Notes under the pieces: generated by a model
Database searches by the model: none
What the model saw: the letters and a program-made list of their open reading frames with translations, nothing else
What the model was told of the DNA's origin: nothing
Position numbers and translations under genes: made by a program
Shown here: piece after piece, positions 12,129 through 20,257 of the stretch
Layout of the letters: the number at the start of each line of letters is the position of its first letter
Numbering within the stretch: the first letter of the stretch is position 1
Origin: Thermoplasmata archaeon
GTDB lineage: Archaea; Thermoplasmatota; Thermoplasmata; Lutacidiplasmatales; UBA184
Direction: 5' to 3'
DNA length: 64,000 nucleotides
Assembly (NCBI GenBank): GCA_022750055.1
Contig: JAKIWL010000003.1
Coordinates: 243,300 to 307,299, forward strand

Positions 12129-14420
12129 CTACAGGGTTCGCTGCGCGCGCTGCTCGGGAGAGCGGAGCCGGGGACGAACGACCGGGGCGCCCACCTTCCA
12201 TCGCTCGCAGAGCGTCGGGTACGGGAATCCGAGCGGGGAGAGCAGCGTATCGGCGCCCCGCGCGAGCAGCTCGACGTACGCGACCGGGTCGTAGCGGTCG
12301 TCCTCGGGAAGCCGCTCGGCGACCGTGACCCGGTCCCGGAACGAGCGCGACGAGCGGTCCCGCAGGACGTAGCGGACCGACTGGCCGGCCTCCCGGTGGA
12401 CCCCGAGCGCTTCGAGCTGACGGAGCGCGGCGACCGACTCCGTGAAGACGACGTAGCGCGACGGGTCCTGGCCCACCCGGTGGGTCATCACGAGCTCGTC
12501 GATGGGCCAGGCGCCGGAGCGGACCCGCTCGGCGATCGCGTCGAGGCGTTCGACCGCCTCCGGGACCGCGCGCTGGACCCCGTCGGGGCCGCGTTCCTCG
12601 GCGAAGCGGTCGAGGACGGCGCGCTCGGCCTTTTCGAGGAGGACGGGCGTGTCACCCCGCCGGGACCGGACCCCCCGCAGCTTGAACTCCCCCGTCTCGT
12701 ACAGGCCGTAGTATCGGTTCGGGACCCCGAGGCCGTGGGTCACCGAGGGCAGGAAGACGATCCACCGGTAGCGGCCCTCGTAGCCGAGCGGCAGGTCGAA
12801 CTCTTCGCTCATCCGCACGGCGTAGCGCTCCGGGTCCGGCGGGTGGGTCGGGTCCGACGGCGCGAGCCAGAGCGAATCGACGATCCCGTGGAGGACGCGG
12901 TATCCCTCTGCCTCGGAGCGGGGGATCAACCGCGCGATCAGGTCGCGCGCGTAGGCGTTGATCGCCTCGTGGCACTCGATCCGGCCGAACCGGGCGTTCC
13001 GGTAGCCCTGGTAGCCGAAGGAGGTCACGAGGATCCACTTGAGCATCTTCGTGCGGCGGGCGTAGCGGTCCCGCTCCGCCTCCGAGAGGCTCGGGTCCTT
13101 GAGCCGCGTCTTGTAGGCGAGCCGGCGCGCGATGAGCGGGGAGAGGGTCCGGGGGATGAGGCCGGGGCGCTTGGTGCACGACCGGTACCCGAGCCCCGGC
13201 GCCCGGTAGGGGCTTCCGGGGCAGCATCGGCAGTCGAGGGTCTCGGTCGACAGGTTGTGGCGGACCATGATGTGCGGGTAGAGGCTCGAGAAATCGAACT
13301 CCTCGACGCCACCGTGGACGCCGACCGGCGGCAGGAAGATCACGCCCCCTCGGTCGGCCTGGAGGAGCCGGTCGAGCGACTTGAACTCCTCCGGGCGGTT
13401 CTTCTTCCACGGTACGTGCACGCCCCCGGTGAGGGCGTGGGCCATCTCCATCGCCGTGAAGCAGGTCCCGGGCGACTGGCGGGCGATGCTCTGCAGGGAG
13501 AGCCTCGAGAGGCGCGCGGCGTCGATCATCCCCTCGAACGAGGCGTCGCCGTAGAGGAAGGAGTCCCGTCCGTCGACGTGGAAGCGGCCGGGGATCGAGA
13601 ACGCCGTGTCGCGGTGGTAGATCCGGCCGTAGCTCTCGTAGGAGCTCGACCGGCGGATCGGCCGGAACGCCGCGGGCTCCCGACCGAGGAAGAACGCCTC
13701 CTCGTCGAGGCCGAGTGCCTGGGCCCGCTCGAACAGCCTCGGGAGGTCGAGCGCGTCCCCGCCGTCCGTCAAGAGGAGGTCCGGGTCCTGGGTCGCGAGC
13801 GCGCGAACGAGGGCGAGGAGCGTCGCCGCCTCGGACTCCTCCTTCACCTCGACGGGCCCGACCCGGACCGATTCCACCGCCGCCCCGGGGGGAATGACCC
13901 CACCGCGCCGGGCCCCGTCGAACCGGGTCTCGAGCGGGACCCAGCGGATCGGCACCGGGGCGTAGTCGATCGTCTCGGGCGGTTCGGTCGCCCGGACCCC
14001 CGCCCCGTCCCAGACGACGGGGGCGAACGGGTAGAGGTCGTGGGCGAGATGGTAGAGCTGGGGCGCCGACAGGTCGACGTCGTAGAGCGTGAGCGCCCGG
14101 TACCCGCCGAGGGCATCGATGGCCGTCGCGAGGCGCCGGCGCGCGAAGTTCGTGCGGGCCGTCACCGCGAGGACGCGTCGGAGCCGGCGGTCGAATAGCG
14201 ACGGCCGCTCGGTGCGCCGCTCGATCCGCTCGACCGCCGGGTCCGGGGCGAAGGTGCGCTCGACCCGATCGAGGAGCGAGGACGGCCCGTCGACCAGGAA
14301 CGGGGGCCGCCACGGGAGGCGACGGGTGTCGACGCGGCCCGTCGAGCGCTCCTTGAGCCACAGCACGACCCCGGTCCCGGGGGCGGAGTCGGTGATGTCG
14401 ATCAGCCACCCGTCCGGCAT
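12129..14420 (-). CDS. Divergent B-family DNA polymerase (PolB2-like)
   Basis: Motif A EEFDFSSLYPHIMVRHNLSTETL; motif B KMLKWILVTSFGYQGYRNARFG; motif C VLHGIVDSLWL (altered from YxDTDS); no recognisable DxE Exo I. Confidence 0.85.
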   Translation of the reverse strand: MPDGWLIDITDSAPGTGVVLWLKERSTGRVDTRRLPWRPPFLVDGPSSLLDRVERTFAPDPAVERIERRTERPSLFDRRLRRVLAVTARTNFARRRLATAIDALGGYRALTLYDVDLSAPQLYHLAHDLYPFAPVVWDGAGVRATEPPETIDYAPVPIRWVPLETRFDGARRGGVIPPGAAVESVRVGPVEVKEESEAATLLALVRALATQDPDLLLTDGGDALDLPRLFERAQALGLDEEAFFLGREPAAFRPIRRSSSYESYGRIYHRDTAFSIPGRFHVDGRDSFLYGDASFEGMIDAARLSRLSLQSIARQSPGTCFTAMEMAHALTGGVHVPWKKNRPEEFKSLDRLLQADRGGVIFLPPVGVHGGVEEFDFSSLYPHIMVRHNLSTETLDCRCCPGSPYRAPGLGYRSCTKRPGLIPRTLSPLIARRLAYKTRLKDPSLSEAERDRYARRTKMLKWILVTSFGYQGYRNARFGRIECHEAINAYARDLIARLIPRSEAEGYRVLHGIVDSLWLAPSDPTHPPDPERYAVRMSEEFDLPLGYEGRYRWIVFLPSVTHGLGVPNRYYGLYETGEFKLRGVRSRRGDTPVLLEKAERAVLDRFAEERGPDGVQRAVPEAVERLDAIAERVRSGAWPIDELVMTHRVGQDPSRYVVFTESVAALRQLEALGVHREAGQSVRYVLRDRSSRSFRDRVTVAERLPEDDRYDPVAYVELLARGADTLLSPLGFPYPTLCERWKVGAPVVRPRLRSPEQRAQRTL

Positions 14421-14465
14421 CGGCTCCCTCCGCGGCTCCCTCGGGCCGAGCGCGGCCGGGACCGG

Positions 14466-14747
14466 TCAGCCGCCCCGTGGGGAGGGCGATGTGCCGGCCG
14501 ATGGCGGCCCGGTTCCGGATCGCTTTGGAAGCTCTCGGGCGAGGTCGACGAGCGCCGACAGGAGGATCGACTCCAGGAGGTCGGGACTCCCCGCGTACGT
14601 CGCCTGGGCGATGTAGCGTCGGGTCCCCCGGCGGATCCGCTCGAACGCGGCCCGGTCCTCCGGGTCGGTCAGGAGCTGACCGAAGGAGTCCCAGCGCTTC
14701 AGCCGTTCCTCCAGGGCCTGCCGGTACGTGGGGGCGGTGCGTCCCAT
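14466..14747 (-). CDS. 93-aa protein of unknown function in polymerase cassette
   Basis: MGRTAPTYRQALEERLKRWDSFGQLLTDPEDRAAFERIRRGTRRYIAQATYAGSPDLLESILLSALVDLARE; overlaps the upstream gene's end, consistent with translational coupling. Confidence 0.7.
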   Translation of the reverse strand: MGRTAPTYRQALEERLKRWDSFGQLLTDPEDRAAFERIRRGTRRYIAQATYAGSPDLLESILLSALVDLARELPKRSGTGPPSAGTSPSPRGG

Positions 14748-15559
14748 CCGAGGATCACCTCCTGCGGGGCGATGCCGCCGAACTCCTCGAGGCCCCGCTG
14801 GCCCGAGGCACGCGGGACGAGGGTGAGGTAGGCGACCTCGCGGTACGATTCGAGGGCGAGCGCTCCCGACCGGGGCCGGCAGCGGACCACGTCGAAGAGC
14901 CGGGGGCCGCGGTCGGTGAGTCCCGGGAACGTCGCGGGCGCATCGGCGAGCGTGAGGAGCATCGGGAGTCCGCTCTCCTCGGCGAGGTCGCGGAGCGTCC
15001 CGGCGACGTGGGCCAGGAGCACCGAGCGCTCCTCGGGCGGGACCTCCTCGCTCTCGAACAGGTTCGATAGGCCGTGGGCGACGAGCAGGGTCGGGCGGTG
15101 CCGTCGGACCTCCCGGGCCCAACCGTCCACGAGGGCGACCAATTGGTAGGCCGTGAACGCCCGGGCGAGCCGCACCCGGCGCAGCACCTCCGCCGGGTCG
15201 GTCCCGACGAGCCGACCGGTCTCGGCGACCCGGTAGGGATGGATCCGGTTCGCGCCCTCGATGAGCGAGACCTGGCCGCCCGCCCGCGCGCTGCCCGCGT
15301 ACAGGAACTCGAGGAGGCGGCCGAGGACCGGTTCGCTCCCGATCCACGCGGTCGCCTCGCCCTCCGAGAACCGTCGCTCCAGCCACGGGAAGATCGCCGG
15401 GGCCTCCGGGAGGAGGGCCCGGGGCGTCCGGTCCGGGCGCGCGCTCGGTCGGCCGACCCGGACCCGGGGCGTCGCCCGGGCCCGGGGGCGGTCGCGACGC
15501 CGCGGGAGCGCGGGCTCGGCCGGGACGGGGGTGCGGACCTCGGAGAGCGAAGACATCAT
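14699..15559 (-). CDS. RecA/RadA-superfamily-like protein, predicted ATPase-defective
   Basis: RadA-like segment ATAWIGSEPVLGRLLEFLYAGSARAGGQVSLIEGANRIHPY...VRLARAFTAYQLVALVDGW; no GxxxxGK[ST]; strand B-like LLVAHGL lacks the usual Asp. Start at MMSSLSE (15559/15556). Confidence 0.6.
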   Translation of the reverse strand: MMSSLSEVRTPVPAEPALPRRRDRPRARATPRVRVGRPSARPDRTPRALLPEAPAIFPWLERRFSEGEATAWIGSEPVLGRLLEFLYAGSARAGGQVSLIEGANRIHPYRVAETGRLVGTDPAEVLRRVRLARAFTAYQLVALVDGWAREVRRHRPTLLVAHGLSNLFESEEVPPEERSVLLAHVAGTLRDLAEESGLPMLLTLADAPATFPGLTDRGPRLFDVVRCRPRSGALALESYREVAYLTLVPRASGQRGLEEFGGIAPQEVILGWDAPPPRTGRPWRNG

Positions 15560-15609: not shown

Positions 15610-15636
15610 TGAAACGGTTCGGGGAACAGTGTTTCA
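15610..15636. promoter_or_regulatory. Imperfect inverted repeat upstream of the RecA-like/PolB cassette
   Basis: TGAAACGGTTCggggaacagtGTTTCA: TGAAAC...GTTTCA perfect 6-bp arms with inner GTTC-GGG-GAAC; lies just upstream of a TATA-like element at ~15586-15592. Confidence 0.4.
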
Positions 15637-16646: not shown

Positions 16647-17414
16647 CTACACGGCGAGCCGCGCGGTCCAGGCCGGGGGCGGAAGGCCGAGCATCTCTTC
16701 GAGGGTCTGGCAGTTGCGCGCGGCATCGCCGCGAAAGTGGTTGTTGAAGAACCCGAGCACCGGACCGCCCGCCTCCGAGAGCGTCCGAACCCGGGGGACC
16801 CAGGCCCGAAGCTCCTCCGGGGAGTACCGGTAATCGTACCAGACCGGAGCCCCGTGGCCGTGCCAGCGGACGTAGGAAAACGGCGCCGTCGCCTCCAGGC
16901 GCACGGGGAGGAGGGGCTCGTCGACCACCACGTGGGCGAGCGCGAACTCCCTCAGCAGGTCGAACGACTCCGGCACGAGCCAGGAGCGCTCGCGGAACTC
17001 GACCGCCACCGGGCCGTCCTCCGACAGGCTCTCGTAGAACGCCCGGACCGCGGGGCGGTCGAACGAAAGGGTCGGAGGAAGCTGCAGGAGGGTCGCGGCG
17101 AGCTTTCCCGACTCGCGCATGGGCGCCATCGCTCGGCGGAATTCCGCGAGCTCCGGGCCCGCGCCGACCAGTCGGCGCTCGTGCGTCACCGCCCTCGGGA
17201 ACTTCGCCGTGAAGCGGAACCCCTCGGGCGTCCGGCGCACCCACGACGCGACGGTCGCGGCGGGGGGGGTCCGGTAGAACGTCGTGTTTACCTCGACGAC
17301 CGGGAAGAGGCGCGCGTAGTACGCGAGCCGGTCGGAGACCCCGCCCTTCGGATACACCCGGCCGGCCCATTCCGGGTAGTCCCACCCGCTCGTGCCGAGG
17401 AGTACCCTGCCCAC
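16647..17414 (-). CDS. DUF72 family protein
   Basis: MGRVLLGTSGWDYPEWAGRVYPKGG..LAYYARLFPVVEVNTTFYRTPPAATVASWVRRTPEGFRFTAKFPRAVTH. Confidence 0.9.
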   Translation of the reverse strand: MGRVLLGTSGWDYPEWAGRVYPKGGVSDRLAYYARLFPVVEVNTTFYRTPPAATVASWVRRTPEGFRFTAKFPRAVTHERRLVGAGPELAEFRRAMAPMRESGKLAATLLQLPPTLSFDRPAVRAFYESLSEDGPVAVEFRERSWLVPESFDLLREFALAHVVVDEPLLPVRLEATAPFSYVRWHGHGAPVWYDYRYSPEELRAWVPRVRTLSEAGGPVLGFFNNHFRGDAARNCQTLEEMLGLPPPAWTARLAV

Positions 17415-17471: not shown

Positions 17472-18152
17472 TCAGTAGCCGGTCCCGGGGGGTAGCGAGC
17501 CGATCAGGGCCCGGTCGAGGTCGAGGACGTTGACGAACTCGGACCCAAGGAACCCCAGGACCGCTTGGACGACATGGGCGTTGACGAGACCGCGAAGGAA
17601 CTCCTCCGACAGGTTCGAGTAGTGGGCGATCCGCGGGATCTGAACCAGGGCGGCGGCCGGCGTGATGTCCGGGTCGACCCCGCTCGCCGACGGCGCGACG
17701 AGGTCGATCGGGACGGTGTGGTTCTGAAGGCAGTCGACGGTGGCGTTTCCGCTCGTCCAATGGCAATAGTAGACGACGTAGTAGGCCGTCTCGTTGAGGA
17801 GGGCCGGGTCGGTGGGACCCGGCGGGACCTCGTTGCCCGGCCCGGTGCCGTTCCCGGCGAAGGTCTGGTAGTCGATCAACGACGCGCGGGGCCAGAACAG
17901 CGCCGGGTTCGTCACGTTCTCCCCGATCCATCGGGATCCGTAGGCCGTCCCGTTCGGGTACGTGAGCAGCGACCCGCCCGAGCTATTCGGCACGAGCGTG
18001 TGGGCGATCAGGCTCACCCCGCCCGGATAGAGTCCTCCGACGACGACGAGGAGCAGGACCAGGATCGTGCCCGACGCCCGGACCGCCCCGGGCACGGTCG
18101 GATCCGGCGGCGGGGGGTGGGGGTGAGGAGGCGGCGGGGGGTCCGTCGACAT
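17472..18152 (-). CDS. kdpC: Potassium-transporting ATPase subunit C
   Basis: LYPGGVSLIAHTLVPNSSGGSLL..GSRWIGENVTNPALFWPRASL..SASGVDPDITPAAALVQIPRIA; Pro/His-rich N-terminus. Confidence 0.9.
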   Translation of the reverse strand: MSTDPPPPPHPHPPPPDPTVPGAVRASGTILVLLLVVVGGLYPGGVSLIAHTLVPNSSGGSLLTYPNGTAYGSRWIGENVTNPALFWPRASLIDYQTFAGNGTGPGNEVPPGPTDPALLNETAYYVVYYCHWTSGNATVDCLQNHTVPIDLVAPSASGVDPDITPAAALVQIPRIAHYSNLSEEFLRGLVNAHVVQAVLGFLGSEFVNVLDLDRALIGSLPPGTGY

Positions 18153-18154
18153 CG

Positions 18155-20257
18155 CTAGCTCCCCAAGGCTTGGACGGCCAGGTGGACGAACGGGGCGAAC
18201 CACGGGCTTCCCACCAGGTAGAGCAGGGCGACGTAGACGAGCCAGATCCCGACGAACGCGCTGACGAAGCCCCCGACGCCGTAGACGAGGATGTTGTTCC
18301 GCAACAGGGCGACCGCCGTCCGGGGACGGAAGGGGGCCCCCCGGAGGGCGACCGGTATCATCAGGGGGATGATGAACGCGTTGAACAGGAGCGTCGCGAG
18401 CACGGCGATCGGGGGGTTGTGGAACCGCAGGACGTTCAGGAAGGTGACCCCGCCCACGCCGACGAAGATCGCCGGCAGGAGGGCGAAGTACTTCGCCACG
18501 TCGTTCGTCACCGAGAAGGTGGTCAGCCCTCCGCGGGTGATGAGGAGCTGCTTGCCGAGGGAGACGACCTCGATGATCTTGGTCGGATCGCTGTCGAGGT
18601 CGACCATGTTGCCGGCCTCCTTCGCGGCCGTGGTGCCACTGTTCATGGCGAGGCCGACGTCGGCCCGCGCCAGCGCCGGCGCGTCGTTCGTCCCGTCGCC
18701 GGTCATCGCGACCAGCCGACCGGCCGCCTTCTCCCGGTTCACGAGCTCGAGCTTCGTCTCGGGCTTCGCCTCGGCAACGAACTCGTCGACCCCGCTCTCG
18801 TGCGCGATCGCCCGGGCCGTGATGCGATTGTCCCCGGTGCACATGATCGTGCGGATCCCCATCAGCCGGAGCTCGCGGAGCCGGTCGGGGATGCCGGGCT
18901 TGACCACGTCCTTCAACAGGATGACGCCGAGTGCGGTCTTGTCCTGACACACGGCGAGCGGGGTCATGCCCTGGTCGGCGGCCCGGCGGGCGGCCTGGCC
19001 AAGCTCCGCTTCGAGTGGACCCGTCACGGACTCGATCGACGCCACCGCCCCCTTGAGCACTTCCCGGCCATCGGCCATGACGACCCCGGAGACGCGCCGT
19101 TCCGGAGTGAAGGGAAGGACACGGGCGATCTGCGGAGGGGGTCCCCCTCGGGCCGGAGAGCGCCGGAAGGCGAGGCGCAGGATCGAGCGGCCCTCCGGCG
19201 TGTCGTCGTAGGAGGAGGCCAGGGCCGCGGCCGCGGTCAGGTCGGTCTTGGAGACCCCTCGCGCCGGGATGAACTCGACCGCGATCCGGTTCCCCGTGGT
19301 GATCGTCCCGGTCTTGTCGAGGATCAGCACGTCGAGGTCCCCGGCGGCCTCCACCGCGCGACCGGACTTCGCGATGACGTTGGCATAGGACACTCGGTTG
19401 ACCGCGGCGATCCCGATCGCCGGCAGGAGTCCTCCGATCGTCGTGGGCATCAGGCAGACCAGGAGGGCGATGAGCGTCCCGAGGCTCACGACGATCGCCC
19501 CGGACGCCGTCAGCATGTAGTCGAACGTCAGGATCACGACGAGCAGGCTCACCGTGAACGCGGAGAGGAGGAGGGTGAGGGCGAGTTCGTTCGGGCTCTT
19601 CTCGCGCGTCGCGCTCTCCACGAGCCGGATCATGCGGTCGAGGAAGCCTCCTCCAGGGTCGACCGAGATCCGGACGAGGATCTTGCCCCGCAGGAGGCGG
19701 CTTCCGCCCAGGACGCTCGTTTTGTCCCCCCCGCTCTCTCGGATCACGGCGGCCGACTCCCCGGTCATCATCGATTCGTCGATCTCGGCGACGCCCTGGA
19801 ACACATCCCCGTCGAGCGGGATGATCTCCCCGGCGCCGATCCAGACCACATCGGTTTTGTGGAGCGCGTTCGAGTCGACGAACTCCGAGGAGCCGTCGGG
19901 CCGCATCCGGCGTGCCCGAGTACCGGTCCGGATCTGACGGAGGCTCTCGGCCTGGGCCTTCCCTTGGGCCTCGGCGATCGATTCGGAGAGGGTGGCGAAC
20001 CAGACCGTCAGGAACAGGATGAGGGTGATCGCGAGGAAGTACGATCGGCTGAAGCCCGGACCCGACAGGTCCGGAAAGGCGCTCGGCAGGAGCGTGATGA
20101 GGGCCGTGAAGATGGTGAAGACATACACGACGAACATCACAGGGTTCCGGGCCATCGTGCGCGGGCCGAACCGGATGAACGATTGCTTCAGCGCCCCCCC
20201 GAAGCTGATCCGGGGGGTCTTCCGAACCGCGAGGGCGGTCGCCGGGATCGTCGCCAC
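18155..20257 (-). CDS. kdpB: Potassium-transporting ATPase subunit B
   Basis: P-type ATPase DKTGTITTGNR, MTGDGTNDAPALARADVGLAMNSGT. Confidence 0.97.
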   Translation of the reverse strand: MATIPATALAVRKTPRISFGGALKQSFIRFGPRTMARNPVMFVVYVFTIFTALITLLPSAFPDLSGPGFSRSYFLAITLILFLTVWFATLSESIAEAQGKAQAESLRQIRTGTRARRMRPDGSSEFVDSNALHKTDVVWIGAGEIIPLDGDVFQGVAEIDESMMTGESAAVIRESGGDKTSVLGGSRLLRGKILVRISVDPGGGFLDRMIRLVESATREKSPNELALTLLLSAFTVSLLVVILTFDYMLTASGAIVVSLGTLIALLVCLMPTTIGGLLPAIGIAAVNRVSYANVIAKSGRAVEAAGDLDVLILDKTGTITTGNRIAVEFIPARGVSKTDLTAAAALASSYDDTPEGRSILRLAFRRSPARGGPPPQIARVLPFTPERRVSGVVMADGREVLKGAVASIESVTGPLEAELGQAARRAADQGMTPLAVCQDKTALGVILLKDVVKPGIPDRLRELRLMGIRTIMCTGDNRITARAIAHESGVDEFVAEAKPETKLELVNREKAAGRLVAMTGDGTNDAPALARADVGLAMNSGTTAAKEAGNMVDLDSDPTKIIEVVSLGKQLLITRGGLTTFSVTNDVAKYFALLPAIFVGVGGVTFLNVLRFHNPPIAVLATLLFNAFIIPLMIPVALRGAPFRPRTAVALLRNNILVYGVGGFVSAFVGIWLVYVALLYLVGSPWFAPFVHLAVQALGS

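Follow-up and report, generated by a model that had tools for sequence, protein, structure and literature searches.

The operon that is closest to the locus studied here was described in 2014 (Makarova 2014, PMC4104785), and its three products, PolB2, PPB2 and iRadA, were modelled as the "PolB2 mutasome" in 2025 (Timinskas 2025, PMC11791011). In the latter work, PPB2 is a predicted trimer whose asymmetrically inserted MGRT arm touches both partners, clamp (PCNA-binding) motifs are reported C-terminally in many iRadA members, and DUF72 genes are enriched "to some degree" near the mutasome. The published marks of PolB2 are the usual replacement of the first Asp of DxD, the loss of the exonuclease site and a D(K/R) motif contacting PPB2, and the system was compared with Pol V, UmuC-UmuD'2-RecA (PMC11791011). 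Dpo2 of Sulfolobus, likewise a PolB2 and the damage-induced polymerase there, has the same type of DxD replacement; it is active, has no exonuclease, extends primers past lesions, and is accurate on undamaged DNA, acting as a mismatch and lesion extender (PMC8764526). Sulfolobus PolB2 is induced by damage, and targeted mutagenesis there depends on it alone (PMC7390963). The DNA-damage response element (DDRE) of Sulfolobus Orc1-2 is an ANTTTC hexamer, reported in a paper whose text does not include ribonucleotide reductase (RNR) (PMC9738581).

The cassette analysed here lies in a window of 64,000 nucleotides, the whole stretch of DNA that was studied, from a 1.52-Mb archaeal assembly of the order Ca. 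Lutacidiplasmatales. The nearest named relatives of the host were Thermoplasmata MAGs, including UBA184 and Ca. Lutacidiplasma, which belong to this order (PMC9287336); the Lutacidiplasmatales are a group of soil archaea. The cassette is an ordinary member of the known PolB2 mutasome system, and the core idea is already published. As in the PolB2 mutasome of archaea and some bacteria, the same three families occur in the order iRadA-PPB2-PolB2, with the MGRT arm, IVD or IID in place of DxD, lost exonuclease and ATPase sites, a DUF72 neighbour and, tentatively, a PIP-like motif in iRadA. Unlike the published system, the locus shows a very strong DUF72 linkage and an operator-like palindrome common to RNR. 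Neither is described in the main texts of PMC11791011 and PMC4104785, and these two features are what looks new beside the published system. A literature search found no description of the palindrome, which is weak evidence of absence.

The first-pass annotation had proposed an archaeal analogue of the bacterial ImuA-ImuB-DnaE2 mutasome, in which a RecA-like non-ATPase partners an error-prone polymerase. The mutasome part of this proposal stands as the best reading, and the three genes form one conserved unit; however, the cassette contains neither ImuB (Y family) nor DnaE2 (C family), and the likeness holds as a loose analogy only. "Error-prone" also needs revision, as the studied relative Dpo2 is an accurate polymerase on undamaged DNA. 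Pol V and ImuA-ImuB-DnaE2 likewise combine a bypass polymerase with a RecA-family protein and an accessory protein, but the catalytic subunit here is of the B family instead of the Y or C family, iRadA is without ATPase motifs, and PPB2 showed no sequence match to the UmuD or ImuB families in the Pfam search. The cassette adds one lineage to a complex that is known so far from modelling and still awaits biochemical proof. Of more use is the operator-like site, a testable sequence handle on how an archaeal order outside Sulfolobales may control mutagenic repair jointly with dNTP supply.

Layout of the locus and its three proteins

The following features were identified at the locus:

15559-14699, minus strand: ORF of iRadA, 286 aa, ATG start, predicted RadA/Rad51 fold without ATPase motifs
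14747-14466, minus strand: ORF of PPB2 (arCOG07300-type), 93 aa, predicted helical, N-terminal MGRT arm
14420-12129, minus strand: ORF of the PolB2 polymerase, 763 aa, with D376, IVD (D515) and the exonuclease site lost
14699-14747, minus strand: iRadA/PPB2 coding overlap of 49 nt, from the ORF coordinates
15611-15635, no strand: operator-like inverted repeat GAAAC-N15-GTTTC, 52-76 nt 5' of the iRadA start codon
15587-15593, minus strand: possible TATA element GATAAGG (tentative, read from the sequence), downstream of the palindrome
16647-17414, minus strand: DUF72 TIM-barrel protein, 255 aa (Pfam DUF72, 2.3e-66)

The ORF coordinates agree with the compact minus-strand array of the first-pass annotation, in which the first two genes overlap and the polymerase follows after a gap of 45 nt. 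The array is real and not due to chance, because the polymerase family matches (8.7e-18 and 5e-125), the Rad51/RadA matches and the conserved 93-aa protein all fall within it. In the window, DUF72 and iRadA share a strand and are separated by a single membrane-protein gene, DUF72 being the upstream gene at a distance of 1.1 kb. Just upstream of DUF72, kdpC and a gene for a KdpB-like P-type ATPase (17472-20257) were found on the same strand. A sigma-70 promoter scan gave no promoter-like site, a terminator scan gave terminators at chance level, and a tRNA scan gave none near the cassette. Neither orc1/cdc6 nor lexA was noted beside the operon in the window.

The 763-aa protein matched Pfam DNA_pol_B (8.7e-18) and the NCBIfam type-B polymerase model (5e-125, below that model's cut-off), and its palm and thumb aligned with Pyrococcus Pol. 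Among aligned relatives, D376, the Asp of motif A, was kept in 90/90 and D515, the second one of motif C, in 88/88, and K461 was invariant too (88-90 aligned sequences). DxD reads IVD, the first Asp being replaced by Ile, and position 513 was I, L and M in 74, 9 and 5 of 88 relatives, respectively. The Exo I DxE was not kept at residues 160-166, so that the exonuclease site is lost. Ahead of the palm, the D(K/R) motif D356-R357-G-G was invariant (90/90). Judged by these residues, the protein carries the published marks of PolB2 and is the divergent B-family polymerase that had been proposed. With Ile as the first residue of motif C, polymerase activity would be expected by analogy with Dpo2. 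The same genome also encodes a Y-family polymerase, and PolB2 as the only bypass polymerase of the genome was rejected for this reason.

The 286-aa protein alone matched Pfam Rad51 at 4.5e-5, and the iRadA family profile matched RadA in the PDB at 5.5e-10. Its AlphaFold2 model (pLDDT 84.5) had RadA/Rad51 as the best Foldseek matches in the PDB (E 7e-12). The Walker A region reads GSEPVLGRL, with no GxxxxGK, and the Walker B region reads LLVAHGL, with no Walker B Asp; these residues were absent throughout the family. The protein is an iRadA with a predicted RadA/Rad51 fold that has lost its ATPase motifs, in line with the ATPase-defective RecA/RadA-like protein of the first reading. A PIP-like motif, QRGLEEF, was located at residues 254-260, about 30 residues from the C-terminus. 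Its pattern, Q-x-x-[LIM]-E-x-[FY], was near-invariant (Q254 in 72/75, L/I/M257 in 75/75 and F/Y260 in 73/75) and resembles a PCNA-binding motif minus the last aromatic residue, the second aromatic being absent. Furthermore, Trp272 was invariant (75/75), because the overlapping PPB2 start, ATG-GG, gives TGG in the reading frame of iRadA.

The 93-aa protein had no Pfam match and is PPB2 (arCOG07300). MGRT (positions 1-4) and PTYR (positions 6-9) were invariant among 32 aligned orthologues, and the AlphaFold2 model was all helical (pLDDT 77). When its sequence was compared with the PDB, the top matches were designed helical repeats, which were taken as composition matches and rejected, and the fold search gave nothing significant, with the SigE N-terminal domain at rank 22 (E 4.8). 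PPB2 was found in 89/106 genomes of the order, so that a small helical protein conserved with the pair is confirmed; it is not, as had been thought, the least described part of the cassette, having already been described as PPB2 with an MGRT arm predicted to contact both partners.

Conservation of the operon and linkage to DUF72

The comparison set consisted of 106 genomes of the order with 92 PolB2 hits; these genomes are related, mostly draft MAGs and not independent samples, and the same loci enter several counts. Both partners were present within 2 kb and on the same strand beside 79/92 PolB2 hits, always in the order iRadA-PPB2-PolB2, and the expected co-occurrence of the trio in other genomes was thereby borne out. 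The iRadA/PPB2 overlap between aligned ends was 45 nt in 51/79, 42 nt in 12/79 and 24-45 nt in 76/79 operons. The exceptions among the 92 hits included contig-edge fragments, split operons (G009, G019 and G051) and genus g2. In genus g2 (L034, L035, L036 and L037) the ORF order was RadA-like, divergent DUF72-like, PPB2, PolB2 and DUF72; the divergent DUF72-like protein matched Pfam at 2.3e-12 and 2.8e-17, while the RadA-like protein, which matched no Pfam family, was named from its position alone. At L120:2565-6001, about 3.4 kb of DNA lies between PPB2 and PolB2. One contig (L053:5029-11402, G068) ends in two tail-to-tail PolB2 operons, which is either a real inverted duplication or an assembly artefact.

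Distances between DUF72 and iRadA were determined in the 62 genomes having both on one contig. A same-strand DUF72 gene preceded iRadA by no more than 10 kb in 60/62, by no more than 2.5 kb in 52/62 and by no more than 300 nt in 35/62 genomes. The DUF72 link is much stronger in this clade than the published enrichment. Three g6 genomes carried a stand-alone DUF72-PPB2' pair (L044:6741-7986, L045:7770-9001 and L047:3087-4379). PPB2' is without MGRT yet under purifying selection (dN/dS about 0.05-0.18), and the orphan PPB2' genes are likewise preceded by a palindrome. The pair in L045 is followed by a HEAT-repeat gene.

The palindrome upstream of the operon and of ribonucleotide reductase

The site in the window, GAAACACTGTTCCCCGAACCGTTTC at 15611-15635, is an inverted repeat upstream of iRadA, and the general form of the palindrome is GRAAC-N14..20-GTTTC. 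At distinct loci upstream of iRadA, the GAAAC-N-GTTTC palindrome was exact in 40/72 and present in relaxed form, with one arm position variable, in 62/72; control tiles of real DNA contained 2/1054 exact and 5/1054 relaxed sites. In split operons each unit had its own palindrome (iRadA and PPB2 in L038; PolB2 in L039, L046 and L120). The exact-site scan took in 14 genomes, and the main target beyond the operon was one gene, the B12-dependent RNR (NCBIfam 2.5e-201). Upstream of RNR genes the palindrome was exact in 16/25 and relaxed in 21/25, and nearly all of these sites had a fixed length of 27 bp (for example L185:1501-1527). The spacer was partly palindromic, with a mean complementarity of 0.57 (RNR) and 0.44 (iRadA) versus 0.30-0.31 in shuffles. 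The palindrome was recognised by inspecting data that overlap in part with those used for the counts, and the RNR genes and split operons are the nearest to an independent test. The host genome contained 8 exact sites against 0 in the reversed control; several of the 8 are expected by chance and their number is not above chance, so the evidence for the palindrome is its recurrence at the same genes.

A TATA-like element follows the palindrome at a distance of about 20 nt, and relatives have CTTTAGA or CTTAAG at a similar position to GATAAGG in the window. In other classes of the phylum and in genus g2, the palindrome was absent from PolB2 loci or gave isolated weak matches there, and it is therefore clade-specific. 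TTTC is common to the palindrome and the DDRE; however, the DDRE consists of one asymmetric hexamer, whereas the palindrome is a dyad with the arms GRAAC and (C/T)GTTTC, in which the first A of the hexamer is absent. These properties fit a candidate regulator-binding site common to bypass synthesis and dNTP supply, and its presence at both the operon and RNR suggests an SOS-like regulon. DNA damage would be the trigger, as inferred from the gene content and by analogy with Sulfolobus.

Proposed mechanism and alternative explanations

The cassette very probably encodes a PolB2 translesion-synthesis mutasome, whose expression would be switched via the palindrome together with RNR. Family membership, the kept catalytic Asp, the lost ATPase and exonuclease sites and the conserved operon were observed here; polymerase activity and extender behaviour would follow from papers on relatives, and the architecture of the complex is an AlphaFold prediction in those papers. 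PolB2, without proofreading, would extend primer ends past lesions. iRadA, a dead RadA paralogue, would hold PolB2 by its RadA oligomer interface and may bring PCNA via the QxxLxxF motif, and the PPB2 trimer would put its MGRT arm between PolB2 and iRadA. A factor binding the GAAAC/GTTTC palindrome would switch the operon and RNR, most likely after DNA damage.

We consider it very improbable that the polymerase is catalytically dead and that the complex serves to regulate replication or the choice of origin, which was the 2008/2014 view of PolB2. The IVD in place of DxD and the lost exonuclease site would agree with the inactivation proposed in 2014 (PMC4104785), but all 88-90 aligned sequences retain D376, K461 and D515, and Dpo2 is active with a similar IID replacement (PMC11791011, PMC8764526). 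It is least probable of all that the palindrome, rather than being a regulon operator, is a feature common to core promoters in this GC-rich clade. Its position upstream of TATA-like boxes would suit such a feature; however, the few exact sites in the 1.52-Mb host genome, the rarity of the exact site in control tiles and the restriction of recurrent targets to the PolB2 operon, RNR and one further locus argue against it.

NrdR boxes are a different 16-bp sequence and occur in pairs. Control of dNTP supply or of S phase (e.g., NrdR-like), with no damage response and with the mutasome merely co-expressed with replication, is an unlikely explanation of the palindrome, if one with some weight: RNR is the best target outside the operon and NrdR is present in some archaea, but the palindrome forms one dyad of 27 bp whose ends are GAAAC/GTTTC, unlike paired NrdR boxes, and PolB2 is damage-induced in Sulfolobus (PMC7390963). 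The translesion-synthesis mutasome remains the preferred reading.

Bypass or repair is paired with dNTP supply also in bacterial SOS and eukaryotic checkpoint responses. We give an even chance to a broader model, an SOS-like regulon of the Lutacidiplasmatales in which the palindrome of about 27 bp, GRAAC...GTTTC, switches the PolB2 mutasome and the B12 RNR, possibly also a structured RNA adjacent to an HxlR gene, and in which DUF72 is a functionally linked fourth component. A relaxed scan with GGAAC gave mostly scattered single matches, and only RNR, the PolB2 operon and the HxlR locus were recurrent. This third site occurs in four genomes (L210:1501-1528, L217:1501-1528, L262:1501-1528 and L263:1501-1528), directly 3' of a gene for an HxlR/RrpB-like regulator; downstream of the site follows a conserved RNA hairpin of about 75 nt. 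The RNA is apparently non-coding, with compensatory changes at five pairs among four sequences, which are few, and an Rfam search of the element gave no real match; site and hairpin are a lead only. Not seen in the other genomes scanned, one exact palindrome (L201:1501-1528, G063) has a topoisomerase I gene on one side and a creatininase-like and uvrA gene pair on the other.
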